Part shown: piece by piece, positions 357-22,759 of the stretch | Position numbering within the stretch: the stretch's first letter is position 1 | Layout of the letters: each line of letters begins with the position of its first letter | Virus record (IMG/VR): IMGVR_UViG_3300010883_000094 | Location: 1-42,740 of that record | Length of the DNA stretch: 42,740 bases | Reading direction: 5' to 3' (one strand) | Origin: a virus | Notes under the pieces: generated by a model | Told to the model about the DNA's origin: nothing | Seen by the model: the letters and a program-made list of their open reading frames with translations, nothing else | Database searches by the model: none | Position numbers and translations under genes: made by a program

Positions 357-2777
357 ATGAGCGGTATAGAAGAAGTAGCAAACTACCTCCGAGAGAGGGT
401 CGAGAAAGTTAATCCTAATAATCCCAAGGCAAACTCTGGTGCAGTACTTCTTAAATTTTATTCTAAGTTTAACGAAGAGGCAGAGAAAGTAGTTGTTATG
501 GCAACAGACATAATACAAGCTTTCTTTTCCAGAGACACAAGGGCAGTACCAGCAGGTAAGGCCAAGCTCACAGCGCTATCCACGAGGATAGGGTCCACGA
601 TAACTAAGTACATAACAAAAGAAACAATGTCTTGGCGTAATGAGATATGTTTAGGGGATCTGATGTTAGAAGCCTTCCTACAACGAGGCTATATAAAAAT
701 CTTTAGAGACCCAGGATTCTCTGAGTTAGATAAAGACGCACCGTTTATGGTTGAGCCTACAAGCTATTGGGCTGAGATAAATATAATACCTATAGCAGAA
801 GACAGGGACGTTCTTGTCGCAACCCACCACAACGAACCCGTAGAGATAAACAACTTGTTCAGAGGTGGAAGGCCCATTATTAAAGGCTGGGATGATGAAA
901 ACTCTAAAGAGTTTAATAGGTTACTTAACAGACCCTTTGTTAACGCAGCTAATAAGCTTGAACGACAAGCCTGGAAAGTAAATAAAAAGCTTTACGATGT
1001 TATCAATAGTAAGTTGTTAGATATTTTACCTAACATACCTGATATGCCTGAAGAAGGATCTAAGTTAGATCTTAAGAACGCTTACCGGGCAATGAAGAAG
1101 AAAGATAATAAGAAAACCAGGGACCGTTATAACAAGACAGCTGCCTTGTGGAATAGAAAGCTTAATGTATTACGCTCTATGTCTAAGACTAACGAGATAA
1201 GAATAACTCTACGTAAGGCAGAGGCTATGTTAAACCTTGAGGTGTTCTATCAGACTATAGAGTTCGATTATCGTGGTCGCATCTACTATAGAGAACCTTT
1301 CCTAAACTACCAAGGTAGTGATATGGCTAGAGGGCTTATGATGTTTGCTGAAGGGGCCCAGCTGAACGAAGACGGAGTAGCAGCCCTGAAAGTACACACG
1401 GCTAACTCCTTCAATCAGAACTATAATATAAATGAAATACCTAGCTGGGTTGAGTGGAACTACAAAGAGTATCTTGAGAAGGAAGGCTTAGATAATATCT
1501 CTGTAGATAAAATGTCTTTAAATGATAGGGTAATGTGGTGTGAGGAGAACGCTGACATGATTCTTATGACAGCCACCGATAATACTATACATGACTGTGA
1601 AAAACCTTTTGTATTTTTAGCTTGTTGCTTTGAGTGGGCAGCCTTCGAAGCTGATCCTGAACATAAGGTCTGTATACCTACTCCTATTGACGGTACTTGT
1701 AACGGTTATCAACACTCAGCTGCGATAGCTAAAGATGGAGAAACAGGCTTGTACGTAGGTCTTGAGGATACTACTATCCCTGTAGACTTATACATACAAG
1801 TTGCTAAAGAATTATTATCTTCTGAGAAACAATTCTTTGAGGATAGAGGGATGAACTTATCTCAGATAAGAAAAGGAATAGCCAAGCGGGCCACAATGAC
1901 TAGGGCTTACTCGGCCGGAGAAGAAACAATAGCAGACAGTATGTTCAGTGATCTATATCAGTTCGGTTATGATATTAAGTTTAATATTTCTATGTTAGAC
2001 TGTGAACACTTAGCTAAGAAAATAATAGAAGCTATTGCTAAGGTCTGTCCTGGTGGGCAGAAGACAATGAAGTACTTACAGAACCTAGCTGCCTACGAGC
2101 TAGGTATGTTCACAGTATATGATAAGAACGGAGATGTAGTCTCCCTCAACCAAAGAAGAAAGGATTATGAAAAGGCGAAGAAGATGAGAGCACAACTCAG
2201 AGAAGAACCAGATAATCTAGAACTACTTAAACAACTTAATGAGATCTCTAATGATATGACCAGAAGAACTAGCGTTCTTGAAAGAGGTAACGGCAGTAAT
2301 TATATTAGCTGGTCAGCCCCTTCAGGCTTCCCTATAAGGTACGAGTCTTTCTTAACAAGATCAGAGAAATGTTTATCCACGTTAAGAGGAGTAGAAGGTG
2401 GTCAGAAGAGCCAGCCAGGTCGCATCAGACACGTAGCCCAGGTATCTACTGAACACGCAGATAAACGAGCGTTCGCAGCAGGCATATCACCTAACTACAT
2501 TCACTCACAAGATGCAGCTCACATGGCTATAGTAATTAGTAAGTGGAATAAAGCCTTCGGCGCAGTACATGACTCCTTTTCCACTCATCCTAATGATATC
2601 AAGGAGTTATCCCAGATAACACGAGACGTGTTCAGGGAAATGTATGAGAAAGATAATGTGTTTGAACAGATAAAAGAAAACATCTTGTCTAAATCAGAGC
2701 AGTGTGATGTAGTAGTGCCTGATAACGGTGATCTAGAGATTGAGTTAGTCTCTGACTCTACTTACTTTTTCGCGTGA
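357..2777 (+). CDS. T7-type single-subunit DNA-directed RNA polymerase
   Basis: This 806-aa protein (T7 enzyme 883 aa) should transcribe middle and late phage genes in the host cytoplasm from phage-specific promoters. All catalytic motifs are present in order: the DxxGR motif DYRGR at 304-308; motif A IDGTCNGYQH with metal-binding D445 (T7 D537); motif B KRATMTRAY with K510 and Y518 (T7 K631, Y639); and motif C VHDSF with H738 and D739 (T7 H811, D812). The chain ends in YFFA, like the T7 C-terminal FAFA foot that lines the active site. A strong AAGGAGAG ribosome site precedes the ATG. The gene follows the helicase, whereas in T7 the polymerase gene precedes it. No phage promoter consensus could be derived from this window. 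Confidence 0.97.
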   Translation: MSGIEEVANYLRERVEKVNPNNPKANSGAVLLKFYSKFNEEAEKVVVMATDIIQAFFSRDTRAVPAGKAKLTALSTRIGSTITKYITKETMSWRNEICLGDLMLEAFLQRGYIKIFRDPGFSELDKDAPFMVEPTSYWAEINIIPIAEDRDVLVATHHNEPVEINNLFRGGRPIIKGWDDENSKEFNRLLNRPFVNAANKLERQAWKVNKKLYDVINSKLLDILPNIPDMPEEGSKLDLKNAYRAMKKKDNKKTRDRYNKTAALWNRKLNVLRSMSKTNEIRITLRKAEAMLNLEVFYQTIEFDYRGRIYYREPFLNYQGSDMARGLMMFAEGAQLNEDGVAALKVHTANSFNQNYNINEIPSWVEWNYKEYLEKEGLDNISVDKMSLNDRVMWCEENADMILMTATDNTIHDCEKPFVFLACCFEWAAFEADPEHKVCIPTPIDGTCNGYQHSAAIAKDGETGLYVGLEDTTIPVDLYIQVAKELLSSEKQFFEDRGMNLSQIRKGIAKRATMTRAYSAGEETIADSMFSDLYQFGYDIKFNISMLDCEHLAKKIIEAIAKVCPGGQKTMKYLQNLAAYELGMFTVYDKNGDVVSLNQRRKDYEKAKKMRAQLREEPDNLELLKQLNEISNDMTRRTSVLERGNGSNYISWSAPSGFPIRYESFLTRSEKCLSTLRGVEGGQKSQPGRIRHVAQVSTEHADKRAFAAGISPNYIHSQDAAHMAIVISKWNKAFGAVHDSFSTHPNDIKELSQITRDVFREMYEKDNVFEQIKENILSKSEQCDVVVPDNGDLEIELVSDSTYFFA

Positions 2778-2785
2778 GGTGTAAC

Positions 2786-2998
2786 ATGAAAAACAAAAAC
2801 TATAACTGGAGATACTTACAGGGCATGAAGACGGTTACCGATGATATATACTGTAATACACTGGCTCTCCCCCAGACTCTGGCTTATACGCCAGAAATAA
2901 ACGAGTGCTTTATAGCAGAACAACAAGATCCCGAGAAGGCCCGACAGGAAATAAGAATCCTTATGGCTAACCGAGGGATATTACCAGAAGGATATTAA
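2786..2998 (+). CDS. Small conserved-looking protein A, downstream of RNA polymerase
   Basis: A 70-aa soluble protein of unknown function. An upstream GTG at 2774 lies in frame and overlaps the polymerase stop, but the ATG at 2786 has GAGGTG a few bases before it and is the better start. It shares a pattern with the next gene product: KNYN near the N-terminus, a Cys, then a leucine-rich stretch ending LAYTPEIN (LAFTPGLN in the neighbour). The two therefore look like diverged tandem duplicates. The location directly behind the polymerase suggests, by inference only, a role in controlling transcription or host takeover. No catalytic motif or membrane segment is visible. Confidence 0.8.
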   Translation: MKNKNYNWRYLQGMKTVTDDIYCNTLALPQTLAYTPEINECFIAEQQDPEKARQEIRILMANRGILPEGY

Positions 2999-3000
2999 TC

Positions 3001-3249
3001 ATGGCAGAAAGAAAAAACTATAACACGGCAGCTAAAATGGGGATGGATATAAATGATTTAGAAGTCTGTGAAGACCTTAATCTAGACCCTGCTTTAGCCT
3101 TCACCCCCGGTTTAAACAAAGCGGCAATGGAAGCAGTATATCAAAGGAACGTAGCAGACTTACAACAAGACGGTATGACTGAAGAAGATGCTATGAAGGA
3201 AGCTAGTAAGATGAGAAGCCTTGCAGATAAGTTTAATAAAAGTCTTTGA
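3001..3249 (+). CDS. Small conserved-looking protein B, paralogue of the preceding gene
   Basis: An 82-aa, charged, probably helical protein, starting two bases after the stop of protein A with AAGGAT as ribosome site. It shares KNYN, a cysteine about 20 residues in, and LAFTPGLN with protein A, then extends into a longer charged C-terminal helix rich in Asp, Glu, Met and Lys. The function is unknown. It is the last plus-strand gene before the convergent terminator, so it is the distal member of the helicase-polymerase operon. Confidence 0.82.
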   Translation: MAERKNYNTAAKMGMDINDLEVCEDLNLDPALAFTPGLNKAAMEAVYQRNVADLQQDGMTEEDAMKEASKMRSLADKFNKSL

Positions 3250-3253
3250 AATA

Positions 3254-3291
3254 AAAAACCCCAAGAATCTTAATTGATCCTTGGGGTTTTT
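3254..3291. terminator. Bidirectional intrinsic terminator between convergent operons
   Basis: A perfect 12-bp inverted repeat (AAAAACCCCAAG at 3254-3265, CTTGGGGTTTTT at 3280-3291) encloses a 14-base loop. T-rich runs follow on both strands. It lies between the plus-strand gene ending at 3249 and the minus-strand gene ending at 3297, so one hairpin can stop transcription from both sides. Confidence 0.92.
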
Positions 3292-3296
3292 AATTT

Positions 3297-6200
3297 TTAA
3301 TACACTAAATTGTTATTCCATTTTTTAACTCTACTCATTAACTCTCTAAGTTTTTTATTTTCAGAGTCTGCTTTCACTTTGCGACCCATTCCATCTGTCC
3401 TTTGACTAGTTATCATTGCTTTAAGCATTGCAGAATAAGAAGAGTTAGGTGTAGCTTTATACTTTCTACCTGTAGCGCTGACTCTATTTATATAATCATC
3501 TCTATTCCCTAGATTACTTTTCCATTGACTAGTAGCAGACAAGCCTAAACTTTCTTCTATAAGAGTTAAAAGTCCTGCGAATTCTTTCCCGTCAACTCTC
3601 ATAGTTGCTCTTATAAAATCTGAATTAGGATCATTAGAGTTAGGAGGTTCGTAGCCTAATTTTTTAGCTTCTTCTATAATAACTTTATTGTATTTTGTTT
3701 GTTGTTCAACTTGATTTGCTACTTGAGGCCTAGCTAATTCTCTAGGGCTGTAAAAGCTATTATCATTTATTCTAGCATTTATTTTATCTAAGTAGGCAGT
3801 GACACCGGAAAACCCACTTAATTCTCCCTTAGAAGAAGCAGTTTTAACCGTAGATAAACTAACTAAAGGAGGTTCTTCTCCTGCTATAACAGCAGCGTTA
3901 TAATCCCCTAAGTGTTTTTCTCTTAAAGATTCTAATTGATTCCCCATACTACTAATAACAGAGCTCATAACTTCTGGGGCTCTTTGAGCTGCCATGTGGT
4001 AGGCTATGTTATCATAAGCATTTTTAAATTTGAGAGTAGAGCCTGCAGTAGTTATACTAGCGTCGTGAATACCTAATTGATTTAAAGGTTTACCGTCAGG
4101 TTTTGAAGCCATTAAAGCTGCTACAAACATCATATAAGCATCAGCTGATTGTACTAAGTCTACAGGTATAGCATTAGTAACTTGACTACCTAACTCTCCT
4201 GGGTTATCATTAACTATACCAAGTTCTTTGGCTAGTTCGAAAGATCTTTTCTTAATATTATTAGCGGAAGAGACACCTGAGTCGTTTACTTTTACATAAC
4301 GACCTAGCTCATAGTCTACCTGGCCTATATTCATTCTTTCCGGGTCGCTTTCTGCTAACAATCTTTCTTTGATTTCTCTACTAACATCATGCATTGGAAG
4401 GAGATTATCTTTAGCCAGAGTTATAGGCCCTAAAAATCCCTCTATATCCGTAGAACCATTAATCATAGAGATTATAGTGCCAGTACCCTTCATAAAGTTT
4501 TGATACTTATACAAAGAACCCATAGAAGCTTTCATAGAGCTAGTAAAAATTTCAGCTAAATCTTCTTCCATTTGTTTAGTGTTGCCCCCATACTCACTCT
4601 CTAAATCTTTCATAATGTCTTCATCTAAAGCATTGATTTGATCAAACATTTCTCTTGCTTCACTATACATTTTTCTAGAAGTTTTACCGTACAAACCAGC
4701 AACTACTAAACCCCTAGCGTATAACTTAGCAGGGTTAGCTCCCTCTAAGTTATTTATTTTATTAAAGAAATTTTTATAGGCTTCTTTTCCTGGTCTATCT
4801 TCAGGCCCTGTTAAAGCATTTTCAACATCATTTTGTATATTCTTCCATATTTTATCTCTTAGATCCCCAAACTCTCTAGTGTCTACTCCTTCTAGCAAAC
4901 CTAAAGTTAAGGCTATTTCTGTATCTCCCATGATTAAAGACATATTAGCTGCATTAGATTGGGTAGCATCCATTTCCATTGTGTAATCAAATTTAACTAA
5001 GCTACTTCCTGGAATTCCTTGTTTAATATTTTCTAGTTTAATAGCTTGAGATAACACACTAACAGGATACATCCACTCACCCTTGTGACCATTAATTAGC
5101 CCTTGCAGTTCAGTAGATAGTCCTTCAAAAGAATCAGGCTGCTGTTGTAGCTGTTCGTTTGTCATTCCACTTAATTTAGCTTGACCCTCTTGCCATCCAA
5201 CTATTTCCTTAGATAATCCTACGGCTGTTTTAAAATTAGTTAATCCATGCCTAACTGCCGCTACAGGGTCTGAGAATTTTATCCCATTCATTTTACCTAA
5301 CACTAACCCTAAAGCATAATGATAATCTAATAGCTGCATATCTTTTTCTGGTAGAGCATCTAACTTTTGTTTAACAGTATAGCCTAAATTAACTCCACTA
5401 GTACCATCAGTACTTAAAGCAGATTTAGCTAAACGCATTACTTTACTATTCTCAATATTATTACTAGGTACTTCTAAATCAGCTGAAGTTACAGTGATAG
5501 GGTCTACGTTAGCAAAAGAAAGTGCCATTCTTATAACGCCTTTTCCATTCATATACTGTAGATCTCTTACTGCAGCAAAGACTCTGTTAGTAGCTTGAGA
5601 CTGTACGTGATTAATGAATCTAGTTTCTCCATCAGCAAAGATAGGTCTAATTTTTTCTTCTAAATCTCTTTGTATACCGGCCCAATTAATGTCTATTTGT
5701 CTTTGAGCTTGTTGAGCAAAAGTATTTTCAGGGTCTTCAAAAAGAGTTTTAAATAGAATTTCCTGATGCAGGTGTAATCTTTCATCTTGTCTAGCCCGTT
5801 TAGCTCTTCTTAAATATTTCTTAAAAGATTTAGGCCCTACTTCTCCTAAGGTCTCAGCCATAGGGTGAGGTATTCCTCCGTTCATTCCTGTTTGACTTTT
5901 ATCTATGGCTCTTTTCATATCAAAAACCATTTTAGTCATCATCTCATAGCCCAAAGGATTTATTTGTATTCCTACATTACTTCTATCTGTCAAGTATTGT
6001 TCTGCTATTTTGTCATTACCTTCTAATGACTTACCGTTTTTGGCTATACTAATATTTCTTTTTTCACTTGCAAATTTATTTTTATTAAATGGAGTTCGTT
6101 GTGCATTAGGGTAGTTTATATTAGGGTCTCTTAAGTTAGCCAAGTAAGCTTTGAGTAGTATATCGTTACCAAAAGTATTTAATACGTTATCTGAGGTATT

Positions 6201-7343
6201 AATAGGCACTACTCTGCCTTGTTTGTTAACCCCCCAACTAATCATACCTTTTTCAGTCATATACTCTAGGAAAGCAGCTGCACCGTAGTTACCTTTAACC
6301 CCTACATCTTGCCCATTATTTAATAGAGAAGACATAGTAGAGCGAACACCTCCTAGCATACTTCTAAGAATAGGTTGAGAATCAGGTCTTCTAAAAGCTT
6401 TATGTAATAGTTTTAAGGATTTAGCAATTCTCTCTTCAGGGTTTAGAGAAGAATCTTTAGCGTTAACTGCTCTCATGTCATTTTCTAGAGCAACTCCCTC
6501 TTCGAATTCATCTGCTTTAGAACCTAAGTGTTCATTACCTTCTTCATTCATTCCGCCGTGATATTTAAATGTAGCTATACCTTTAGATAATTCCATAGCA
6601 GCTACTGTAGCAACACTGCCAAAGTTATTTACGTTAACATCATTTAGTCCAAATTCTTTTTCCATTTTTTCGTAGACTATTTCGTCGCCCTCACTATGTC
6701 TCTTTAAAAAAGGGGTGCTTGGAAAACTTCCATCCGAATTAATCCTGATTGAATTGTCAAAGTCTTCTGTTAACTCTGCCATACCGTCTAGTCTTTTAGT
6801 GTTAGTGAAAGCTCTTATCTTAGCGTCTGTTTGAGATCTTGCGCTTTCTTGTAACTCAGATGGTGTTAGAGGTGCAGTATCATCTGCTTCTTTTATCTCT
6901 AATGCCTGTAACTCAGGAATAGAAGGTGCAAATTGATTTAGAGTGTCAGTAATTCTTTGACGCGACCCAGCTAATTCAGTAGGGGCATTAGGGTCTCTTC
7001 TAAAGTCAGGAAGTCTTGTTTCAACATCAAGAGCAATGTTACTAGTTTCAATATCTCTTTGCCTTAATTCTTCTACAGTTGATGGGGGAACAGGGTACTG
7101 AGTTCTCTGACCTCCAGCAACACCAGATTGCAATCCAGTAAAAGTTTGCCCAGGGACTTGCTCACTTATTAAAGGTTCTACCGCAGAGGTTCTATCGGTA
7201 GTTGCTGTAGTTGCCATAGTCTTATTTAGCAAGCCTACAGGATCAATAGCTGTAGCTAAATCTTCTACCATACCATCAGTACTCGTAACGGGAGGAGCTA
7301 ATGGTGCTTTTCTTTGAAGGGTACTGCCTGCTTTTACGAACAT
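3297..7343 (-). CDS. Putative virion-carried RNA polymerase (N4 vRNAP-like), 1348 aa
   Basis: The last gene of the late operon, placed directly after the ejection proteins. The central part shows the polymerase core of the T7/N4 family. Motif A: DYTMEMDATQSNAANMSL with D792 as predicted metal ligand, ending LIMGD where T7 has MLRD. Motif B: K873-x3-R877-x7-Y885-G886, the spacing of the N4 pattern R-x3-K-x7-YG with the two basic residues exchanged. Motif C: GIHDAS with H1093 and D1094. Before motif C, IPVDLVQSAD matches T7 IAPNFVHSQD. Spacings D792-Y885 (93) and Y885-D1094 (209) fit the family (T7 102 and 173). The T/DxxGR motif is not clear; the best candidate lies near 597-640. The N-terminal 550 residues and C-terminal 230 are unassigned. 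GGAG precedes the ATG. By position it is probably packaged and injected. Confidence 0.8.
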   Translation of the reverse strand: MFVKAGSTLQRKAPLAPPVTSTDGMVEDLATAIDPVGLLNKTMATTATTDRTSAVEPLISEQVPGQTFTGLQSGVAGGQRTQYPVPPSTVEELRQRDIETSNIALDVETRLPDFRRDPNAPTELAGSRQRITDTLNQFAPSIPELQALEIKEADDTAPLTPSELQESARSQTDAKIRAFTNTKRLDGMAELTEDFDNSIRINSDGSFPSTPFLKRHSEGDEIVYEKMEKEFGLNDVNVNNFGSVATVAAMELSKGIATFKYHGGMNEEGNEHLGSKADEFEEGVALENDMRAVNAKDSSLNPEERIAKSLKLLHKAFRRPDSQPILRSMLGGVRSTMSSLLNNGQDVGVKGNYGAAAFLEYMTEKGMISWGVNKQGRVVPINTSDNVLNTFGNDILLKAYLANLRDPNINYPNAQRTPFNKNKFASEKRNISIAKNGKSLEGNDKIAEQYLTDRSNVGIQINPLGYEMMTKMVFDMKRAIDKSQTGMNGGIPHPMAETLGEVGPKSFKKYLRRAKRARQDERLHLHQEILFKTLFEDPENTFAQQAQRQIDINWAGIQRDLEEKIRPIFADGETRFINHVQSQATNRVFAAVRDLQYMNGKGVIRMALSFANVDPITVTSADLEVPSNNIENSKVMRLAKSALSTDGTSGVNLGYTVKQKLDALPEKDMQLLDYHYALGLVLGKMNGIKFSDPVAAVRHGLTNFKTAVGLSKEIVGWQEGQAKLSGMTNEQLQQQPDSFEGLSTELQGLINGHKGEWMYPVSVLSQAIKLENIKQGIPGSSLVKFDYTMEMDATQSNAANMSLIMGDTEIALTLGLLEGVDTREFGDLRDKIWKNIQNDVENALTGPEDRPGKEAYKNFFNKINNLEGANPAKLYARGLVVAGLYGKTSRKMYSEAREMFDQINALDEDIMKDLESEYGGNTKQMEEDLAEIFTSSMKASMGSLYKYQNFMKGTGTIISMINGSTDIEGFLGPITLAKDNLLPMHDVSREIKERLLAESDPERMNIGQVDYELGRYVKVNDSGVSSANNIKKRSFELAKELGIVNDNPGELGSQVTNAIPVDLVQSADAYMMFVAALMASKPDGKPLNQLGIHDASITTAGSTLKFKNAYDNIAYHMAAQRAPEVMSSVISSMGNQLESLREKHLGDYNAAVIAGEEPPLVSLSTVKTASSKGELSGFSGVTAYLDKINARINDNSFYSPRELARPQVANQVEQQTKYNKVIIEEAKKLGYEPPNSNDPNSDFIRATMRVDGKEFAGLLTLIEESLGLSATSQWKSNLGNRDDYINRVSATGRKYKATPNSSYSAMLKAMITSQRTDGMGRKVKADSENKKLRELMSRVKKWNNNLVY

Positions 7344-7347
7344 AGTA

Positions 7348-10300
7348 TTAATTCTCCGTTAGTTTTTTAAGGAATTCTATTTCTTTTTCTCTAGTTATTC
7401 TTATGTCACCTAAGAAGGGAGTTCTCTTAGCTATTCTTTCCGCTATGTCCGCCCCGCCACTTATTTTTCTTACTTCACTATCTACTGTATTTATAGCAGG
7501 AGATTGACTTATTACTGCATCGTATAGATTTTCTAGAGGGCTCATCTTGCTAGCGTTAGCACTCATTTCTGCTATAGCCTCTAATGCCATAGCAGGGGTT
7601 CCCATCCAACCAGTGTACTCTGCTGCTCTCCAGTTAGAGGTTCTAGTAAATCTACCTTCTTCGTCATCGTCTTCTAACCAAGGGGCTTTTTCACCGTATA
7701 CTATATAGTCTTTTACCATCATAGATAACATAGCTAGCATATAAGCAGTTAAAATAGAATTAAAAACACTCCTACTCATTGCAGGGTTGCCACTTCTGAT
7801 ATAACCATTCCAAGCCCTGGGAATTACTTGTGCAGTGAAATGGGATATAAATCTTTTAAACTGAGTAAACAGGGCTAGATGAGGGTCTTCTAATATTTTA
7901 GGAGAAGAACCTGGCTCTGGTCTGACAGAGAATTCATCTGTAAAGTTAGTAACCCCTATGATATACTGTTCTTTAATAAACTGAGCATCAGCCGGGTCCA
8001 TTCCTATTCCGTCTAGAATATCTTCTTCTGTTTTACCTGCTATCTTGTCTAGCCTAGCTATAAGCCCTTCAACGTTAATACCATAGTAATTAAGTCTGTC
8101 TCTAGAGTATCTGCCAGCTTCAGTAGTACCCATGCCTAGGTCCTGATCTTGTTTAATTATAGTAAGCATCTTAAGCATTTCATTCCAAGCCGGGCCTGCT
8201 CGAGCTGCTCTCATACCTAAAGTCTGGTTCTCTACTAAATTTAATTTATAAAGTAATGCTGAAGCTTTTTTATAAAAATCAGAATTTAAGTTAGCCCCTT
8301 CTAAGTGGGCAATATCGCTTTTAGGCCTGAGAATCCCTGCTTCTACCTGACGTCTTACCCTAATATCAGTAACAGCTAGTTGTCTTTTAGTTTTATAAGA
8401 TTTACCTGCAATACGACTAGTGCCTTCTTTAATGTCTAGCCCTATTCCTCTAACAAAGATAGCCGCAGCGTCTTTAAGATAAGTTCTCATTTGTTTAGCG
8501 TTTAAACCTATTAAACCATAACTCATTTCCGCTACGTTAGCAAAGAAGTTAGTGTCCATATAAGTTAAGGTAGAAGCAAACAAAATATTTTCTTGTGCCC
8601 ACTTCATTCTTCTGTTTTTAATAGGTCTAAACTCCCCCTTAACCATTTGAATATAGCTTTCAGTGAGGTTAGCAAACTGTAACATTTCGTCTTCAGTTAT
8701 CTCCCCGGCAGCATGGGCTTGTTCTAATAGTCTTGCAGCTACCTCTCCGTTCTTACCGAATCTACTTGCAATACCTATTTCTCTGGTAATAGAGTCCACG
8801 GTTTGTAGAGTATCATTATAGACATTACTGCTTCTATACTTAGCAAACTTAGGGTTACCAAAAACCCCTGCTTCTCTCAATAATTTTCTATCTTCAGAAT
8901 TAAGCCGAGAGTCTTTAGCTCTATCTACAAGCCCTACTATTTGTTTCTCAGTTAACTTTATAGGTGTTCTTTTACTAGTACGCTTATCTGTAGGTAGTGA
9001 CACACCGTCTTCTAATTCAACTCCTCTTAATAAGTCAGAAAAGTTTTTATCTATAGAGCTAGGCAATAAGTTATTAGGTGTTGTAAGAAATCCAGGTATT
9101 AACTGTTTCTTCCCATCTATAGTAGTAGTTATTCCTATTTCATTTTCAGTGCCTGTTGTTTCTAAGTAAGTAATTATATCTTCTTCTATACTAACAAGAG
9201 AATCTTTTAAAGCTTGTAGTTTAACTTTATCTACGTTGGCAGGTAATGTAGCTGGATCCTGATTGAGGTAAGTATATAGGGAGCTCAGCTCTGAGTTAGC
9301 CCCTACTATTTCTTTAATATCAGACTCGCTAGGCATCCCCTTAAACATAGAAGAAAAAGAGACCCCTTGTTCTTGAGTAACACTTAGACCGCTAAATATT
9401 CTTAGCCCGCCAATTAGACCGCCAAGAGTTTGTATATTAATATTATCACTGCCATCTGTTTTTCTATAGTTATTATCTAAAAAGTTTCTGAAGGCTTGCA
9501 AAGCTCTCTTGTGAGGTTTCTTCCCTCCAGTTAAGTTAAGGAAGTCTCTCCAGTATCCCGCACCCTTAGAGTCTTGGTATCTATTAGATAGCTTCTCTAA
9601 GTTATTACTAGAAGATAATTTTTCTTTACCTTGCCAAAGACCTTTACCCTCTTTAACGTCTTTAACTACTTGCAATGGACTGAGCTTTACTCCGTTGTTT
9701 CTTTCCCTCATATTCTCTTCAATAAGAGATACTACTTGTCTTCTTTCTGCGCTCTCAGGGGTCATTTGAGCTACTGAGGAGTTGATACGATCATTCCTAC
9801 TTAATATCCCAGGTATACTATACCCACCACCAACAACAGAACCTATTGCCCCGGCCTCTATCATAGTATACATAAGATTAGTGTAATCTAATTCTGTAGA
9901 GGTAGTAGCGGCAAGCCCTATTTCTTGTATGGCTTCTTGAATAGATTCTGTTGCACCTTCTATACTGCCTCTTTTACCCGCTTCTTTAATAAAGTCAGTT
10001 ATAGTTCTTTTAGCAAGTATCTGTTTCTTTGCTAGTATTTCTAATGTATCACTAGCCTTAAACAACTCTTCCATAGTAGCTTTGTCTAGGTTTTCACTAG
10101 CTGTTTTTCTAATCTCATCAGTTGTAGGCCTAACACCATCAGGTAATTGAGGGCCCATATTTAGTCTATCTTCTTCTCGCTTAACAAATTTTTCTAGTAA
10201 CTCTCTTCTACCATCTTTAGTAAAAGCATTAGATCCTGCAGTTAATTTAGAGAAACCAAACCTATCTACTAACGCTATAGGCATAGCAATACCTGCAGCT

Positions 10301-11469
10301 ATGAGAGGGTCTTTCTCTCCTTCGGGTTGTCCCTGGTAGACAGAAGAAACAGCCATCATGAATGTTGTAGCAGTACCTGCAACGAGAGAGCCAACGGGTC
10401 CACCCACAGCAAAACCTCCTGCGGAAGCTGCTCCAATCACCCCAAGCTGAGGACCGTATTGGATTATAGAAGATGACACGAACCTCCCTACATCTAAAGG
10501 ATTTCTGATATCCCATAGCCCTGTGGTGTAGCCTGCTTCTAACAATCTATTTTCGTTTTCAGCTACCCACTCTTCTCCCCAAGTCTCTATTGTGTTAGAA
10601 TTAACTAGGTCTCCGCCCCATTGAGTAACACCTGCAGCTGTATTCTCTAGGAGATATAAACTTTTTTCTCCAGCGTTCCACATTTCTCCCCAGAATTTAG
10701 GTTTACCTTGATCTAGCTCGTTGAATTTTTTATCTATACTATAGGCAGAGGGTTCACTGTTAACCGAAATAGTTAATGCTTCTCTATTAGCAAGCAGTTC
10801 TTGCTCTAGCTCTGCTCTTTTTGTTTCGTCTTTTTCTTTCTCTAGTGCACTCTTAATTTTATTTATCTCAGCAACGTAATAATCTTTTTGTAAATTAGAC
10901 CCGTGAAATAGTTGATCTGCAGTCCCATAAACGGACCTTAAAAAGTCTTCTGGTCTAACAACGCTTTCAACTATCGCCCTGGCTTTATCCCCTGCAGAGA
11001 TATTACTACCTTTGTCTCTAAAACTATCAGAGAAAGCCCCGATATTTCTTAGGGCTTGCTGTTCTTTTTTCATAAAACGATTAACGCTTACTACTCTTTC
11101 TTCGTGGAGATAATTTGAAAGGGTTTGTCCGTCTGCGCTCTGAGGGTCACCTAGGTTTCTACCGAAGAAACCTTTTTTACCAGTCAAATTTTCTTGGTCA
11201 AAATTTCTACCTGTTATAACATCTCTTACCGCTTTCTGCGAGGCTCTAGCTCCGTACTGCCCTACTTGAAACTCCCCTTGTTCTCCAAACCTAGCAACTT
11301 CAGGGGTGTCTATATTTTCTAATCTAGTACTGATACCGTTTTCAGTGGTGAGAGTATCACCGTCTCTCACAGAAAAAGTTTTATCCCCTAATATAATATC
11401 GCTACCGGGGAGTGTTGCAGCAGGTTCTTTCTTTTCTGCGTCAGGTATTAAGAAACTAAAATCTCGCAT
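7348..11469 (-). CDS. Large ejection (internal virion) protein with N-terminal staphylococcal nuclease domain
   Basis: A 1373-aa protein in the position of the large T7-type internal core proteins. Residues 30-130 form a staphylococcal nuclease (thermonuclease) domain with all active-site residues in place: D36-G-D38-T39 (SNase D21), R49 (R35), D54 and E57 in RLENIDTPE (D40, E43), and R104 in FGRNLG (R87), followed by a DG-x-LSNYL segment as in the family. A predicted coiled coil covers about 196-232. A glycine-rich hydrophobic stretch at about 341-376 and another hydrophobic segment near the C-terminus (about 1255-1275) could contact membranes during DNA delivery. The gene lies between the transglycosylase and the polymerase-like gene with very short gaps. 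The nuclease assignment is strong; the role in ejection is inferred from context. Confidence 0.85.
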   Translation of the reverse strand: MRDFSFLIPDAEKKEPAATLPGSDIILGDKTFSVRDGDTLTTENGISTRLENIDTPEVARFGEQGEFQVGQYGARASQKAVRDVITGRNFDQENLTGKKGFFGRNLGDPQSADGQTLSNYLHEERVVSVNRFMKKEQQALRNIGAFSDSFRDKGSNISAGDKARAIVESVVRPEDFLRSVYGTADQLFHGSNLQKDYYVAEINKIKSALEKEKDETKRAELEQELLANREALTISVNSEPSAYSIDKKFNELDQGKPKFWGEMWNAGEKSLYLLENTAAGVTQWGGDLVNSNTIETWGEEWVAENENRLLEAGYTTGLWDIRNPLDVGRFVSSSIIQYGPQLGVIGAASAGGFAVGGPVGSLVAGTATTFMMAVSSVYQGQPEGEKDPLIAAGIAMPIALVDRFGFSKLTAGSNAFTKDGRRELLEKFVKREEDRLNMGPQLPDGVRPTTDEIRKTASENLDKATMEELFKASDTLEILAKKQILAKRTITDFIKEAGKRGSIEGATESIQEAIQEIGLAATTSTELDYTNLMYTMIEAGAIGSVVGGGYSIPGILSRNDRINSSVAQMTPESAERRQVVSLIEENMRERNNGVKLSPLQVVKDVKEGKGLWQGKEKLSSSNNLEKLSNRYQDSKGAGYWRDFLNLTGGKKPHKRALQAFRNFLDNNYRKTDGSDNINIQTLGGLIGGLRIFSGLSVTQEQGVSFSSMFKGMPSESDIKEIVGANSELSSLYTYLNQDPATLPANVDKVKLQALKDSLVSIEEDIITYLETTGTENEIGITTTIDGKKQLIPGFLTTPNNLLPSSIDKNFSDLLRGVELEDGVSLPTDKRTSKRTPIKLTEKQIVGLVDRAKDSRLNSEDRKLLREAGVFGNPKFAKYRSSNVYNDTLQTVDSITREIGIASRFGKNGEVAARLLEQAHAAGEITEDEMLQFANLTESYIQMVKGEFRPIKNRRMKWAQENILFASTLTYMDTNFFANVAEMSYGLIGLNAKQMRTYLKDAAAIFVRGIGLDIKEGTSRIAGKSYKTKRQLAVTDIRVRRQVEAGILRPKSDIAHLEGANLNSDFYKKASALLYKLNLVENQTLGMRAARAGPAWNEMLKMLTIIKQDQDLGMGTTEAGRYSRDRLNYYGINVEGLIARLDKIAGKTEEDILDGIGMDPADAQFIKEQYIIGVTNFTDEFSVRPEPGSSPKILEDPHLALFTQFKRFISHFTAQVIPRAWNGYIRSGNPAMSRSVFNSILTAYMLAMLSMMVKDYIVYGEKAPWLEDDDEEGRFTRTSNWRAAEYTGWMGTPAMALEAIAEMSANASKMSPLENLYDAVISQSPAINTVDSEVRKISGGADIAERIAKRTPFLGDIRITREKEIEFLKKLTEN

Positions 11470-11487
11470 ACGAGTACCTACTCTTTC

Positions 11488-14331
11488 TTATTTAGCTATG
11501 TATTGCCCTAATAGAATAGTCCTAACATAATCATTAGGTGCGTTAAGAATATTTCTTCGTTGTTTATCTTTCTCAGGGGATCCGCTGAGTTCAGAAAACC
11601 CTGGGGTCAACTTAGCTTGATCTAGACTAGTATACAAGCTAGCACCACTTTGTGTGAGGTACTGTTCTATTTCTTGTACTGCCATGTTGGCACTTTTAAT
11701 GCCACCTAAATCAGATATAAACTTATCTATATCTTTTTGCCCCATGTTTTCTATCTTTTTTATTTCGGCCTGTTGAGAACCACCGAGTGCTAATAGTTTA
11801 AACATAGACTCTAAGCCAATACCCTCTGGTATCATCTCAGGATTTAACTTTAAAAGATCATCTAGTATATGTACCATATCTTCATTAGATCTGTTAAGAT
11901 ACTTACCTGCTTTTACCACAGCTTGATTGATTGAGCTTTCAGATAGTTCTTCTCCACCCCCAAACTTTTTGCTTAAGTTTTTATTTTCTTCTTTTGATAG
12001 GGCTTTAAAGTAATCAGCAGCCCAATCAGGATTGTTAGTAATAATATCTTGAGAAGTGTCTTCCCATTCTTTTCCGACCTCAAACGGAGTCATTTCCCCG
12101 TTTATCATAGTGACTCTTCTGCCTGTACCGTCCATTAGAGGCCAAGAATCCTGTAAGTATCTTGTACCAACTTTACGGACTTGGTCTGCAGCTTTACTAA
12201 AGTCTACTAACCCAGCCCATTCACTCATTTGGCTTTGATCTGCCATAAGAGTCCTGGCAAGTATTTCATCTCCTGCAGCTAAAGCAGCTTGAATTTTCTT
12301 TCTTTGTTCAGGGGTGTAGAAGTCAGACCCTTTTCCGAAGAGACTTCTAAGACTGTTCATTACTTGTTGTCTGTTTCCTGAAGCTCTTGACCCCAGTGTT
12401 TGCCTAAGTTTAACATCATCAAGTACCTGCTTACCAGCAAATCTCATTGAACCGCCGTGGCTACCACCTGATAATCTACCTCCAGCATAATACAACATAG
12501 CTCTCATAACGTCTTGTTTGTTAAAACCAAAGGTTTCTTCTATAGTTTTAAATATATCTGTACCATCAGTTTTATTTCCGTCAGGGCCAGCTATTACTAT
12601 TTTTCCTTTATCTTGGCCTTCATTTAAAAAATCATTATCTGACATTTCTACTGTATGTATACCGTCTGTAACAACTTTTCCATCTGGAGAAGTAATTACT
12701 TTTTCACTTAAACGTTTAGTAATTACTTTTTCACTTAAACGTTTAGTAATCTCTTCATCATAAGTACTATCGGGTAAAGGGCCAACTGCAGGGGGTTGCT
12801 TTGTAATAAAAGAGTCTAACATTTTATTACGTGCTACTACTTCTGCGTCTTCTCTTCTTTCTAATAATGGTTTAAAATTTATAAACTTATTAAAGTTTTC
12901 AGTAACTGCACCGGTTAAATTATTAAACCTATCTCCCACAGAAGAAAGAGGTTCTACAACATGGGGTCCAGGGACGTTTTGAATACTTGAACTTAATGTT
13001 TTTTTCATTTGATCAACAAAATTACGAGTAGGATTATAACCTAACCTTACTGCTTCATCTTGTCTTAGTTTTTCATACTGGGAGATAGGCCCAGTAGCTG
13101 CCATAGTATTTTTAAGCCTGTAGTCTTTTCTTCCAGACTCTCGTCGTTCATCTTCTCTTTGAATACTTCTGCCTTGCTCTATCATTCTTGATATAATAGC
13201 ATTATTAGCGGGTATTTGAGCAGCCTCTGCGGGTATAACTGCTTCTCCAGGGGTTAGCATAGCTGGAACAGTATCATCAGCAGTTCCTCCAGGAGGATTA
13301 CGCATTGCTTCAACATTATCTAGTATTTCACCTACATTCATATCGCTGAGATTTCTGTCGGTAGGCCCTCTTCTACTTAGTATATCAAGATAGGTAGAGA
13401 TGTCAGGTTGTACCATACTATTTCCTTTATTATATCCTTTTATTACTACTCCTGGATTCTGAATAGCTTGTCTTTGTATTTGTCCTGCCTTTATTGCACT
13501 TAACGCGTTAGCGTCAATACCCATCGGCGCAGGTACAACAGAAATACTACTAGTATTAATGTCACCCCCAAGTGCAGGCACGACTGCACCACTATTTCCT
13601 TCCTCTAATCTTTGCGCTATTAAAGCTTGCAAAGCAGCATCATAAGGATCTTGTGTGGAAGGAGTATTTAATTGAGCAACTTCCATAGGTCTAGGTAAAG
13701 GAGGAAATCCATTTTCAATTTGACTAAAGTTAAAAACGCCTGCTAGAGTATCTTTACCTTTATCTGTCTTAATATAAGGTGGTTTTTCTGTTGTTCCAAA
13801 ATCTTTAGTATAGCCTAAAATAAAGTTTAGATAATCAATAGTCTCTTGATTGTTAGGCACTCCGCCAATTTTAGAGACTGCACCGAAGCCTGCGTTATAA
13901 GCAGCAACAGCTAAGTCGTAGTCGCCATCATACCTCTTTAATAATGCCTGTAAGTAGTTCCCTGAAAAATCTAAATTAGTTTTTTCATTATGCATATTTG
14001 GTATTATAGAGTTAATCCAATTATTTTTTTCTTCTTTGGACAAACTCTCCCAAAAAGATTCTGGCCCTCGATCTTTTTCTTCTTTATTGGCTCTATCTGT
14101 ATTATAAGCTTTTTCTAATTTATTATACGAAGGAGAAAATCCCTCAACCCCTATTCCGGGCTGTAAAAAGGTAGAAGGAAGGATCTGACCTAACCCTCTT
14201 GCGTTGTCTTCAGAGATTTTACTAGTGTCAAAAGAGCTTTCTCTAAAAACAAGTTTTTCAAATATACCGGGGTCTATCTTTCGATCGGCTGCTACCCTTT
14301 TAAGGTACTCTATAATCTGTTGTTCATTCAT
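11488..14331 (-). CDS. Ejection protein with N-terminal lytic transglycosylase (SLT) domain
   Basis: A 947-aa protein whose first roughly 180 residues are a soluble lytic transglycosylase domain: catalytic E31 in FRESSFD, then ARGLGQILPST, and the AVAAYNAG motif followed by an ETIDYLNFIL helix. In T7, gp16 carries the same domain at its N-terminus and opens the murein when the genome enters the cell. The rest is low-complexity and helical, with a DDTVPAMLTPGEAVIPA segment often seen in phage structural proteins. An exact tandem duplication of nine residues (VITKRLSEK) sits in the middle. The start has only a weak ribosome site, 14 bases behind the previous stop, so translation may be coupled. 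Confidence 0.9.
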   Translation of the reverse strand: MNEQQIIEYLKRVAADRKIDPGIFEKLVFRESSFDTSKISEDNARGLGQILPSTFLQPGIGVEGFSPSYNKLEKAYNTDRANKEEKDRGPESFWESLSKEEKNNWINSIIPNMHNEKTNLDFSGNYLQALLKRYDGDYDLAVAAYNAGFGAVSKIGGVPNNQETIDYLNFILGYTKDFGTTEKPPYIKTDKGKDTLAGVFNFSQIENGFPPLPRPMEVAQLNTPSTQDPYDAALQALIAQRLEEGNSGAVVPALGGDINTSSISVVPAPMGIDANALSAIKAGQIQRQAIQNPGVVIKGYNKGNSMVQPDISTYLDILSRRGPTDRNLSDMNVGEILDNVEAMRNPPGGTADDTVPAMLTPGEAVIPAEAAQIPANNAIISRMIEQGRSIQREDERRESGRKDYRLKNTMAATGPISQYEKLRQDEAVRLGYNPTRNFVDQMKKTLSSSIQNVPGPHVVEPLSSVGDRFNNLTGAVTENFNKFINFKPLLERREDAEVVARNKMLDSFITKQPPAVGPLPDSTYDEEITKRLSEKVITKRLSEKVITSPDGKVVTDGIHTVEMSDNDFLNEGQDKGKIVIAGPDGNKTDGTDIFKTIEETFGFNKQDVMRAMLYYAGGRLSGGSHGGSMRFAGKQVLDDVKLRQTLGSRASGNRQQVMNSLRSLFGKGSDFYTPEQRKKIQAALAAGDEILARTLMADQSQMSEWAGLVDFSKAADQVRKVGTRYLQDSWPLMDGTGRRVTMINGEMTPFEVGKEWEDTSQDIITNNPDWAADYFKALSKEENKNLSKKFGGGEELSESSINQAVVKAGKYLNRSNEDMVHILDDLLKLNPEMIPEGIGLESMFKLLALGGSQQAEIKKIENMGQKDIDKFISDLGGIKSANMAVQEIEQYLTQSGASLYTSLDQAKLTPGFSELSGSPEKDKQRRNILNAPNDYVRTILLGQYIAK
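12691..12744. repeat. 27-bp exact tandem duplication inside the transglycosylase gene
   Basis: Two identical 27-bp copies (12691-12717 and 12718-12744), with the first bases of a third, encode VITKRLSEK twice in frame. The identity at DNA level points to a recent slippage event that kept the reading frame. Confidence 0.95.
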
Positions 14332-14345
14332 AAGATTACTTTCTT

Positions 14346-15995
14346 TTAGTCAGCCTTATTTCTCTTCATCATCATGTCATAGAGCTTAGCATCATGTAGT
14401 TCATCTGCTCTTTGTTCAGATCTCTGAACTTTAAAACTATCTAACTGTTTTTTAGATGAAGGGCCTCCAGACATAGGGCCTGCTACCCCTCCTCCAGGAC
14501 CACTAAATGGCCCAACTTGATCAAGAATATAAGGTGAAAGTCTTAAAAAATTTTCTTTCATCTTATCCATAAAACTGCTCCTTCTTTCAGATGGCTCAGA
14601 ATTAGATGAAGGGCCTCCAGACATAGGGCCTGCTATCCCCCCAAGGCTAGGAATTAGGTAATCAAGATCACCTGAAGGGTAAGGTTTTAAGAACTTTTCT
14701 TTCATCCTATCTATAAAACTACTCTCTCCAGCTGCTGGAGGAAGAGGAGATTCTCTTATTCTATCGTGAAAAGGCAAATTGTCAAAGTCCCTGACTGGAG
14801 GAATTTGTGGTCCAAAGAAAGGAAAATTTCTTGGCCCTACTGGAAGCTGAGGTCTTCGATCCATAGCAGGCATATCATATCCATTAGAAGGAGTTTCGGG
14901 GACTATCTCTACTGGCATACCTTTACCCCCACCTAGAGTACCCGCATTGCCCGGAGAGTAGGACCTATAAGTTCCCGCTGGGTTTCTATAAATTAAATCA
15001 TCAGAAAAAGCACTGCCAGTAAAAGGACTTGCCATAGGCCCGTTGAAGACAAAATTATTAGGGTCTGTAGGACCATCGTAAATACCTTCGAATCTTCTAG
15101 GGTCTGTAGGGCCATCGTAAATACCTTCGAATCTTCTAGGGTCTGTAGGTCCACCATAAACGAGAGGGTCTATTCTTATAGTAGGGTCTACACCAGAGGT
15201 ACCGTGATTAAAGCCTTGCATAGGCAAATTATGAGGCTGTACGTAAGGAGTAGGTATCATTCCTACGCTTGCCTGCATAGGTGTTACTCCTTTTCTAGAA
15301 GTAAGATCAGCATAAGCGTCTCTTATCATTTCATCTTCAGAAGACATTGGTGTAGGAGAATCATATTTAACAAAATTAGACCCATCACCGTATTTCATAG
15401 GGTTTATTCCCGCTACATTAGCAGTGCCTTTGTTAAGAGGTATACCCATTCTTAGTTTATGTTCATCTTCGGGACTAAGTTCAAAAATCATTTCAATATC
15501 ATCATGATCAGCCCAAGCGCCACTAGGCATAGCTCTCCTATAATTTTGTTTAGCTGCATGATAATCTAATCTTGGCCCGTAGGTTTTAAATATAGGAGAG
15601 CTCGAAGCCATATCCATATAAGAAGGATGGCTCTCTTTCTTTTTAACTTTTTCAGTACCTTGTTTAAACATAAAAGGTAATGCGGCAATAGCTAAAGGGC
15701 CTAACATAGGGGCTAGACTTGCCATAGCACCTCCGGCACCACTCATAGCACCTAATATTCCTGACCCAGCAGTAGCAGCAGGCCCCATAGCTTGTAACAC
15801 CCCTGGTGCAGCATTAGACGCAACTGTACCTGCTGTGCCTAATACTTTAGGTATCAGTGCTTCTCCTACCGCAGTCCCTAGGGCTGCATTCATTTCTCTT
15901 TCTTGATTAACAGGAGCACCTGGAATACCTGCTCGCTGTACTCCTGGTAACATAGACATATTTTCTTTTTCTTTATTAATACCTAAGCTTAACAT
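14346..15995 (-). CDS. Hydrophobic, repeat-bearing virion protein (probable ejection protein)
   Basis: A 549-aa protein that I do not recognise as a family. Residues about 45-110 are rich in Gly, Ala, Met and Pro and hydrophobic (for example APMLGPLAIAALPFMF), suited to membrane insertion. The rest is Pro/Gly-rich and probably disordered. It has a 13-residue tandem repeat (DPRRFEGIYDGPT) and a duplicated segment of about 50 residues near the C-terminus around AGPMSGGPSS and a basic helix (xxFMDKMKENFL). A strong AGGAGG site precedes the ATG. It lies between the gp14-like and transglycosylase genes, which suggests that it is injected and helps form the trans-envelope channel; this is inference from position and composition. 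Confidence 0.75.
   Translation of the reverse strand: MLSLGINKEKENMSMLPGVQRAGIPGAPVNQEREMNAALGTAVGEALIPKVLGTAGTVASNAAPGVLQAMGPAATAGSGILGAMSGAGGAMASLAPMLGPLAIAALPFMFKQGTEKVKKKESHPSYMDMASSSPIFKTYGPRLDYHAAKQNYRRAMPSGAWADHDDIEMIFELSPEDEHKLRMGIPLNKGTANVAGINPMKYGDGSNFVKYDSPTPMSSEDEMIRDAYADLTSRKGVTPMQASVGMIPTPYVQPHNLPMQGFNHGTSGVDPTIRIDPLVYGGPTDPRRFEGIYDGPTDPRRFEGIYDGPTDPNNFVFNGPMASPFTGSAFSDDLIYRNPAGTYRSYSPGNAGTLGGGKGMPVEIVPETPSNGYDMPAMDRRPQLPVGPRNFPFFGPQIPPVRDFDNLPFHDRIRESPLPPAAGESSFIDRMKEKFLKPYPSGDLDYLIPSLGGIAGPMSGGPSSNSEPSERRSSFMDKMKENFLRLSPYILDQVGPFSGPGGGVAGPMSGGPSSKKQLDSFKVQRSEQRADELHDAKLYDMMMKRNKAD
14452..14635. repeat. Direct repeat pair, 34 bp, spaced by 150 bp
   Basis: The same 34 bases occur at 14452-14485 and 14602-14635 and encode the AGPMSGGPSS segment in the 549-aa protein. 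Flanking sequence is also similar, so a 150-bp (50-codon) unit seems to have been duplicated in frame and then diverged. Confidence 0.85.
15061..15138. repeat. 39-bp tandem repeat, two near-identical copies plus a partial third
   Basis: Copies at 15061-15099 and 15100-15138 differ by a single base, and a third diverged start follows. They encode the 13-residue DPRRFEGIYDGPT unit in frame within the 549-aa virion protein. Confidence 0.92.
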
Positions 15996-20887: not shown

Positions 20888-22759
20888 TTATATTTCACAA
20901 GCACCCCCGGTGCAAGCTAAGGTTTGAGCACCCTCGGTATTATCTGTATCTTCATAATCAGATAATTTATTAAAGTTTATTTGAGAAGGGAAATTATGAA
21001 AGGCTTTTTCATACTCTTCTTCTCCAATATCTTGATAAGGCGCTTGAGCGTAAGTATGTTCTGAGTAAGGCAGAAAACTTATTCCTGATACTAGATCAAA
21101 GTTCTTGTAAACCCAACTACCCACCTCAAGCCACTCATCTTCTTTAACATAAATGGTAACTGAAGGTTTATGCTCACACCAGTGCATAGCAAATAGTTTC
21201 CAATTTTCAAGTTGTTCTATAGCGGACTGGTCATTGGCCATAATAGCCGACTTAGGTGAGCTGATAGGAAAACTAAAAACTGAAGTGTTATTAGGGTTCA
21301 TTACATCGTCTTCATAAGGGACTCCTTCGTCCATTAAGAAAGCTGTAATCGGGTCCTTTTTATCTTGACGTACTGTTCGTATGTAGTAAGGTGCGAACCT
21401 ACCGTGTATTCCTGAAGCAGAGTTTACTAACTGGCTTACGGTACCACTGGGTTTAACACAAGTTATTGCAGTAGAACTAGAAATATTTAATAACTTAGCG
21501 TATAACTCATTGGTTTCTATAGCAATATTCTTTAGATAGATTAAATCTTCCGCACTAGGTTTCTGTAATATTTTACAGTCCTGTATTCCTGTAAGAGAGA
21601 CTCCAAGTAATCTTTCGGCCTCTGTATTTTCTTTCCAGACTTTCCTCAGATAAGTGAAGTCTGTAAGAGTAGATTGCAAGGTACCTAGGATAGTAGCTAA
21701 CTTAACTTTTTCTCCTAGCTCATCTAAAGTATCATTTTCTCTACAGATTACTTCACTGAGGTTACATACTTGATTCGGCCTAAGAATTATTTCTGAACAA
21801 GGGTTTGTACCCCAGGCAAAACCTGTTTCTCTTCTCATAGACTCTGCTACTTTTTTATCTGCAGCTTCTCTAGAAAAAATTCCTCGTTCTCCCGAACCAG
21901 ACTTTATCAGAGATATCCATTCTTCTAAGAAAACGGGTAAGCTAGGCTTAGACTTGTAGACAGCAGAGTTATTTGCAAGAGCAAAGTGCGCTTCGTTTTC
22001 CCACCACGCCCCACTCTTAGCATCTCTCATTTCCCTGTCACCAAGGTCACTAAGAGAAATCATAGCTGATCTTCTTACTCCACCGACTACTACTACTTCA
22101 CCTATCTTACACATAATAGAATGACACTCTATTGAGGTAAGTTTTCTTCCCGCTGCTTTTCTAAAAGTGGCTTCGGTAAAAGATAATAGATCTTCCAAGG
22201 GATCTGGCCCTGAGGCTCTTCCTCCCATAGTATGTAGTCTTGCCCCAGCAGGCCTAACCTGACTGAAGTCAAACTTATGTACTCTACCCAGGTAAAGATC
22301 TGCAATGTGCTTTCTTAAAGCTTTAGCCCAACCTTCTTTAGAGTCCTCTACAATGATAACTCTATCTGAACTTTCAAAGTGATCGTTTACTATAGGTAAT
22401 TTACTTATATTTTCGCTCTCAACACTGAAGCCTACACCGGTACCTGACATAAGTACAAACATAGTTTCGTCAAAAGTCCTTGGGCTGTCTACTGCTACGT
22501 AACTACAGTTATAACCCGCCATATTGTTTTTCTCTAGAGCAGGACCAGCACACCACATACTTCTCATAGATGGCATTACTTGTTTATTCTCTACAGCAAA
22601 TCTTAATTCTTCAAATAAAGTGTCAGGTAGGCTATTTACGCGGCCCTTCCAAAAGTCGATTAATCTCTGCACCGTTTCTTCCCAAGTTTCTCTTCGACCT
22701 TTATTGTCTAGCCAACGGGAATAGCGACTTAGATGAATAATCTGTTCGTAGATATCCAT
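20888..22759 (-). CDS. nrdJ: Class II (adenosylcobalamin-dependent) ribonucleotide reductase, monomeric type
   Basis: A 623-aa enzyme that reduces ribonucleotides to deoxyribonucleotides with coenzyme B12 as radical source, feeding phage DNA synthesis. Compared with Lactobacillus leichmannii RTPR (739 aa) all active-site residues are present: C85 (C119), the radical cysteine C321 (C408), E323 (E410) in NPCSEI, C332 (C419) in QVCNLSEV with the same 11-residue spacing, the PSGTVSQL phosphate loop, and the C-terminal redox pair C616-x4-C621. It is shorter than the bacterial enzyme. AGGAG lies eight bases before the ATG. It sits in the late minus-strand block between the lysis cassette and the nozzle, away from the replication genes, directly behind a terminator. 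Confidence 0.96.
   Translation of the reverse strand: MDIYEQIIHLSRYSRWLDNKGRRETWEETVQRLIDFWKGRVNSLPDTLFEELRFAVENKQVMPSMRSMWCAGPALEKNNMAGYNCSYVAVDSPRTFDETMFVLMSGTGVGFSVESENISKLPIVNDHFESSDRVIIVEDSKEGWAKALRKHIADLYLGRVHKFDFSQVRPAGARLHTMGGRASGPDPLEDLLSFTEATFRKAAGRKLTSIECHSIMCKIGEVVVVGGVRRSAMISLSDLGDREMRDAKSGAWWENEAHFALANNSAVYKSKPSLPVFLEEWISLIKSGSGERGIFSREAADKKVAESMRRETGFAWGTNPCSEIILRPNQVCNLSEVICRENDTLDELGEKVKLATILGTLQSTLTDFTYLRKVWKENTEAERLLGVSLTGIQDCKILQKPSAEDLIYLKNIAIETNELYAKLLNISSSTAITCVKPSGTVSQLVNSASGIHGRFAPYYIRTVRQDKKDPITAFLMDEGVPYEDDVMNPNNTSVFSFPISSPKSAIMANDQSAIEQLENWKLFAMHWCEHKPSVTIYVKEDEWLEVGSWVYKNFDLVSGISFLPYSEHTYAQAPYQDIGEEEYEKAFHNFPSQINFNKLSDYEDTDNTEGAQTLACTGGACEI

Follow-up and report, generated by a model that had tools for sequence, protein, structure and literature searches.

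To our knowledge, the enzymes carried on podovirus ejection proteins are peptidoglycan cutters or, in N4, an RNA maker. In phage SU10, gp20–24 leave the particles upon genome release, according to PMC9509320 (we take the gp numbers used there as those of the GenBank record), while the N4 virion RNA polymerase is a large ejected protein that reaches the cytoplasm (excerpt of PMC12633501). A search of titles and abstract beginnings in open-access PMC yielded no ejection protein described as having a nuclease domain. In the review PMC8954989 there is no word beginning with 'nuclease', nor is there one in the passages of the paper describing Roseobacter phage CRP-7 (PMC6918029). These state that the CRP-7-type group is the rarest of that paper's four groups of RCA phages, yet abundant and widely distributed. 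The group considered here comprises marine viruses of bacteria.

Late structural operon

The window, that is, the whole analyzed stretch, is a virus record of 42,740 bases and represents part of the genome of a short-tailed phage. Its portal, major capsid, and adaptor proteins belong to SU10 families, and 152 phage records, among them many LUZ24-like ones, contain matches to its 536-aa protein. The genes central to this analysis, and the predicted staphylococcal nuclease (SNase) domain, are as follows.

3297–7343, minus strand: E3, a partner of E2, 1348 aa, no cysteine, with relatives in the corresponding position of CRP-7 and of contigs
7348–11469, minus strand: E2, an ejection-type protein of 1373 aa with a predicted SNase head, no cysteine; relatives of its body are LUZ24 gp50 and KPP25 ORF088
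11026–11400, minus strand: predicted SNase domain, E2 residues ∼24–148, supported by profile, hhalign, and model
11488–14331, minus strand: E1, a partner of E2, 947 aa, with an N-terminal lytic transglycosylase (SLT) domain (PF01464, 49.5 bits), no cysteine

The E2 gene lies in the end region of the late structural operon, adjoining the transglycosylase gene E1, among other large internal proteins; SU10 shows the same arrangement. E1 matches phrog_342, an internal virion protein with an endolysin domain, while no known domain was found in E3 by Pfam and phrog comparison.

Several other genes of the window deserve mention. A gene for B12-dependent ribonucleotide reductase (20888–22759, minus strand) has tail-type genes on either side and thus sits within the operon for virion proteins. 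It is a single ORF, unlike its counterpart in CRP-7, where a group I intron (Rfam RF00028, 79.2 bits; L002:6349–6559) separates two annotated reductase halves. A 549-aa protein (14346–15995, minus strand) carries tandem copies of a motif of the G-P-T-D-P-R-R-F-E-G-I-Y-D type; Pfam matches it weakly, below threshold, to RFEGP repeats. A 150-aa protein (23083–23535, minus strand) matches Peptidase_M15 with 27.6 bits at a cut-off of 25, and is perhaps the endolysin.

Nuclease domain

The first-pass annotation had placed an SNase at the N-terminus of E2 and proposed a search with the family profile. PF00565 indeed matches at this place when the window alone is searched (17.7 bits, E 1.3e-4), with no second match anywhere in the window, but the score stays under the Pfam gathering score of 21 bits, which is a detection threshold and not a biological feature. 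With the N-terminal 173 aa of E2, hmmscan gives 17.0 bits (E 0.008), again below the cut-off. The whole 1373-aa protein yields nothing in Pfam at the E limit of 0.01, and nothing in NCBIfam. The 21-bit cut-off is likewise not reached in any of 15 other records, of which L006 scores 13.9 bits and 14 have no match.

More sensitive comparisons point the same way. A profile of ten N-termini, run against 177,635 PDB sequences, retrieved thermonuclease (4h7b, E 5.7e-6; 2sns, E 6.6e-5). Seven designed 'Cake' proteins outranked thermonuclease in this list, which also held an eighth; we rejected them as an artefact of repeats scoring ∼9 bits each. The comparison of the E2 head with stand-alone SNase genes by hhalign gave a probability of 94.8 and E 4.9e-8, and aligned D38, R49, D54, E57, and R104 with their counterparts. 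The AlphaFold2 model of the domain, built from ten alignment rows (mean pLDDT 75.8, pTM 0.73), has an OB-type barrel with strands and helices in the SNase order. In Foldseek, 49 of the 50 best rows were SNases (E from 5.2e-4, TM 0.36–0.53), the remaining one being SND1, a Tudor-SN protein; in VIA-align the best 50 rows were all SNases (Z 8.3–8.7, rmsd ∼3.7 over ∼115 residues). The structural model thus bears out the predicted nuclease fold. These structural scores are moderate; the assignment of E2 residues ∼24–148 to the SNase family, as judged from sequence and model, is firm because the PDB profile match and hhalign add to the fold matches. A chance match to SNase is ruled out, since whole-protein relatives carry the same residues at 20–37% domain identity and the family profile retrieves thermonuclease from the PDB.

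The domain residues corresponding to the catalytic ones are listed below, together with their SNase equivalents. Counts refer to distinct sequences.

11362–11364, minus strand: D36, equivalent to SNase D19; unchanged in 11/11
11356–11358, minus strand: D38, equivalent to D21, a Ca2+ ligand; unchanged in 11/11
11323–11325, minus strand: R49, equivalent to R35, a catalytic arginine; unchanged in 11/11, with a counterpart in hhalign
11308–11310, minus strand: D54, equivalent to D40, a Ca2+ ligand; kept in 10/11, N in L015, with a counterpart in hhalign
11299–11301, minus strand: E57, equivalent to E43, the general base; unchanged in 11/11, with a counterpart in hhalign
11158–11160, minus strand: R104, equivalent to R87, a catalytic arginine; unchanged in 11/11, with a counterpart in hhalign

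The five residues D38, R49, D54, E57, and R104 are therefore where they had been reported in the 1373-aa protein, and D36 is present as well. The invariant domain columns in the 11-row alignment are D36, D38, T39, R49, E57, G65, F90, R104, and G114, and an independent full-length alignment reproduces them. In the nine-row alignment (the same without L015 and L019), the invariant columns number 16 of 107 and comprise all six catalytic-equivalent positions (hypergeometric p 4e-6 for nine sequences, ignoring kinship). Together with the profile and hhalign, this upholds the earlier claim of a complete active site. The active-site residues are constant at 20–37% domain identity to the window, while most other domain positions vary. 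The residues following D54 are the canonical T-P in the window (motif DTPE), A-G in nine members, and A-F in L015. The most distant member, L015:9032–13258 (likewise L016 and L017), has N at the D54 position and keeps the other catalytic residues; judging by this substitution, its nuclease may be altered or lost.

Relatives and selection

In a tblastn search of 50,697 phage records, the sole full-length relative of E2 was gp34 of CRP-7 (28.9% identity over 97%), annotated as hypothetical; a C-terminal match was also seen in two KPP25 records. The SNase domain of the window alone, searched by tblastn against cultured phages at E up to 10, retrieved CRP-7 (E 0.007) and five further records with weak matches (E 0.9–9), while a stand-alone SNase query matched 118 of the 50,697 records. 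A scan of viral contigs with the window protein alone found no relative. With a two-sequence alignment, 13 loci were found in IMG/VR, and the N-terminal profile added one locus (L019) and two stand-alone SNase genes (L027, L028). The scan of genome contigs with the two-sequence alignment found no prophage or host relative, which is weak evidence, as it was based on two short patterns.

All 13 environmental contigs that cover the N-terminal end keep the SNase domain, as does CRP-7. L014, one of the 14 environmental relatives, begins at residue 318 at the contig edge and stands outside this count, and L033 is a fragment of the L015 protein, likewise without the N-terminal end. As several contigs are copies, the set comprises 11 distinct N-termini including those of the window and CRP-7; the first 260 residues are identical among L010–L012 and also among L015–L017.

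The SNase domain is under purifying selection. In four members of the CRP-7 clade (six pairs), dN/dS was 0.032–0.059 in the SNase part (residues 36–160 of these members' proteins), 0.049–0.105 in the rest of the protein, and 0.49–0.93 in the first 35 residues, before the SNase part; in the pair L006–L007 it was 0.10 in the SNase part against 0.22, the absolute values being rough because synonymous sites are near saturation.

Body of E2 and its partners

By hhalign, the E2 body is homologous to LUZ24 gp50, a 'phage particle protein' (E 1.4e-12, window residues ∼269–560), and to KPP25 ORF088, a 'structural protein' (E 2.2e-12), their virion status being taken from annotation. The first-pass annotation had described the nuclease as fused to an ejection-type virion protein, and this homology agrees with it. 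No match between the E2 body and SU10 gp24 was detectable by profile comparison.

The SNase domain was not found in LUZ24 gp50 or in the KPP25 piece by profile comparison, nor by eye in the first 183 residues of KPP25 ORF088. Of 15 records, 12 were positive with the SNase profile, and the missing ones were exactly KPP25, LUZ24, and SU10. Loss of the domain from related phages with the rest conserved, which would have refuted the first-pass annotation, did not occur within the group, as CRP-7 and all 13 informative contigs retain it. Ejection therefore does not need an SNase, and the head looks lineage-specific, as distant relatives of the body and SU10 are without it. Either the CRP-7 lineage or an ancestor of it gained the head, or other lineages lost it.

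AlphaFold predicts the ∼1200-aa body as helical at low confidence, and with a pLDDT of 47.5 this model is unfit for comparison with solved ejectosomes. In regard to the membrane-active segment, rich in glycine and alanine, that podovirus ejection proteins are expected to have, hydropathy peaks of 1.66–1.84 occur in five of six E2 proteins examined, whereas the window E2 has none over 1.6. The head of the upstream partner E1 is SLT in the window, L005, and L015, and pesticin-like in CRP-7 and L009; no wall-cutting head was detected in L008, L011, L007, and L019, the last two of which end at the contig edge. Thus, the wall-cutting head of E1 varies among members, whereas the SNase domain of E2 stays in every informative one.

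Cysteine content

E1, E2, and E3 together contain no cysteine in 3668 aa, compared to 56 in 9894 aa of the other main ORFs of the window (P 9e-10) and 22 in 7670 aa of the other proteins of its structural region (P 2.7e-5). All 24 examined E-type proteins of relatives lack cysteine, too. Known ejected sets have one cysteine in 10,820 aa, while other proteins of the same phages, which we picked ourselves, have 130 in 17,731 aa, about 0.7%. We defined these sets as T7 gp14–16, the N4 virion RNA polymerase and its two neighbors, P22 gp7/16/20, and SU10 gp20–24. LUZ24 gp50 and gp51 have no cysteine, gp49 has three.

The lack of cysteine fits proteins that would unfold, cross the oxidizing periplasm, and refold, and may be read as independent support for the ejection of E2. 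It is not proof, since several other structural proteins here are also without cysteine. As an observation in its own right, the ejected proteins of podoviruses look nearly cysteine-free (window 3297–14331, minus strand; L039, L040, L041, L042, L043), and in this small, hand-picked set near-absence of cysteine is a candidate marker for predicting ejection proteins. In the titles and abstract beginnings of the literature searched, we found no statement on cysteine-free ejection proteins.

Exchange of the E1–E3 block

A further contig, L005, carries a second version of the region.

3302–12397, unstranded: block with a divergent version in L005, the flanks being 97% identical to the window

The 97% identity of L005 DNA extends over window positions 1–3301 and 12398–14570. 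In the 9.1 kb between these flanks, matches are short and reach at most ∼80%. The RNA polymerases of L005 and the window are 99.9% identical, compared to 74% for E1, 42% for E2, and 31% for E3. Therefore, the C-terminal third of E1 together with E2 and E3 has been exchanged as a block among close relatives, which suggests that ejectosome parts may be exchanged as one co-adapted unit. The nuclease active site is intact in both alleles of the cassette.

We also considered that the SNase domain of the window was swapped into its protein from another SNase. This is unsupported, as the body topology is not rejected by the domain (AU p 0.12). The window domain is less like the domains of relatives than its body is like theirs, and sits on a long branch. 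The body data reject the domain tree (p 0.001); this asymmetry is expected because the domain is short and has little signal.

Possible function

In this short-tailed phage of the LUZ24/SU10 kind, E2 is probably an ejection protein with a catalytically competent SNase as its N-terminal head. Most likely, the ejectosome delivers the head as a functional, Ca2+-dependent nuclease; we infer its activity, location, and target. The phage head would pack E2 together with the peptidoglycan cutter E1 and with E3. At infection, the three cysteine-free proteins would traverse the tail before the DNA, at least partly unfolded. The SNase head, small and without disulfides, could then refold past the outer membrane, take Ca2+ from the seawater-like periplasm, and cut, within the envelope or at the inner-membrane exit, any DNA or RNA that the ejection channel does not shelter. 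All four steps are proposed rather than observed, and the substrate is the least certain part.

SNases need calcium at levels of seawater and, presumably, of the periplasm, far above those of the cytoplasm. For this reason, we favor the periplasm or the inner-membrane exit as the place of action. Several points count against our reading. Next to packaged DNA, and in Ca2+-rich seawater, an active nuclease would have to be restrained; since the genome survives beside it, we infer that inside the capsid the head lacks calcium or is unfolded or blocked. Further points are the change of D54 to N in L015 and of T-P to A-G or A-F in 10 of 11 members, the scores below the Pfam cut-off, and the absence of the domain from LUZ24, KPP25, and SU10.

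The same hazard of packing a nuclease with the genome, and the same N in L015, would be accounted for if the fold were non-catalytic, an OB-type domain gripping DNA or a partner protein in assembly or ejection, its residues being kept for structure or binding. The Foldseek row with SND1 shows the fold in a protein with a mainly binding role. Still, we regard this as unlikely, since all six catalytic-equivalent positions fall within the 16 invariant columns, and binding alone leaves the joint retention of metal ligands and both arginines unexplained. If the nuclease acted in the cytoplasm, on the chromosome or RNA of the host as infection begins, it would supply nucleotides and stop host expression. 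Large ejected proteins can enter the cytoplasm, as the N4 polymerase does (excerpt of PMC12633501). Moreover, the phage has a ribonucleotide reductase gene, and therefore nucleotide supply matters to it. On the other hand, entering phage DNA would be equally exposed there, and the calcium need of SNase far exceeds cytoplasmic levels; cytoplasmic action is thus possible but doubtful.

If E2 were not ejected but exposed on the particle or released at it, the nuclease could clear DNA outside the cell, be it on the cell surface or among lysis debris. Calcium is abundant in seawater. Moreover, the baseplate hub protein of a Bacillus prophage-like element bears an SNase domain (excerpt of PMC2147016). 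However, the position of the gene, next to that of a lytic transglycosylase protein where the structural operon ends, the homology of the body to LUZ24 gp50, and the lack of cysteine all fit an ejected internal protein better, which makes extracellular action quite improbable. A role in processing the genome of the phage itself, for instance by trimming or freeing the leading end on entry, is highly improbable. Although the nuclease would be the first enzyme beside that end, LUZ24, KPP25, and SU10 manage without the domain, and SNase enzymes are not sequence-specific, so that the own genome would be at risk. Finally, the exchanged alleles might represent an injected weapon or shield, destroying DNA of competitor phages or other incoming DNA in the periplasm while the own DNA is sheltered by the channel. 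We consider this distinctly unlikely; if true, superinfection would be excluded right from the first seconds onward.

A nuclease head delivered by the ejectosome, our preferred reading, becomes testable in CRP-7, which is an isolated phage. The head is present in every informative member and has been missed by standard annotation. It also poses the puzzle of what keeps a nuclease packed beside the genome from cutting it.

Comparison with known systems

The E2 head shares with the staphylococcal nuclease (thermonuclease) family PF00565 the predicted fold, the order of its elements, the Ca2+ ligands, and both catalytic arginines. It differs in scoring below the Pfam cut-off and in being fused to a giant phage protein, without a signal peptide of its own; the phage members of the family, among the matches listed, look like separate small genes. 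T41-P42 of staphylococcal nuclease is retained in the window, but replaced in the other ten of the 11 group members.

LUZ24 gp50 and KPP25 ORF088 have a body homologous to that of E2, encoded in the same part of the virion operon. Unlike E2, they are without an SNase domain, and in LUZ24 gp50 just 71 residues precede the part in common. SU10 has portal, capsid, and adaptor proteins of the same type as the window, and its gp20–24 are large, lack cysteine, and are encoded where the late operon ends, similar to E1–E3; SU10 has no SNase domain, and its gp24 has no detectable sequence match to the E2 body.

T7 gp16 and similar long ejection proteins resemble E2 in having an N-terminal enzyme head (excerpt of PMC11440229). 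The T7 head, a lytic transglycosylase, cuts peptidoglycan; in the window such a head is on E1, and the predicted nuclease is on E2. The nearest precedent on record places the SNase domain on a different virion protein, the BtI1 baseplate hub protein of Bacillus thuringiensis, at the N-terminus as in E2. According to the excerpt of PMC2147016, the hub is of myovirus type, comes from a Gram-positive host, and is not an ejection protein.
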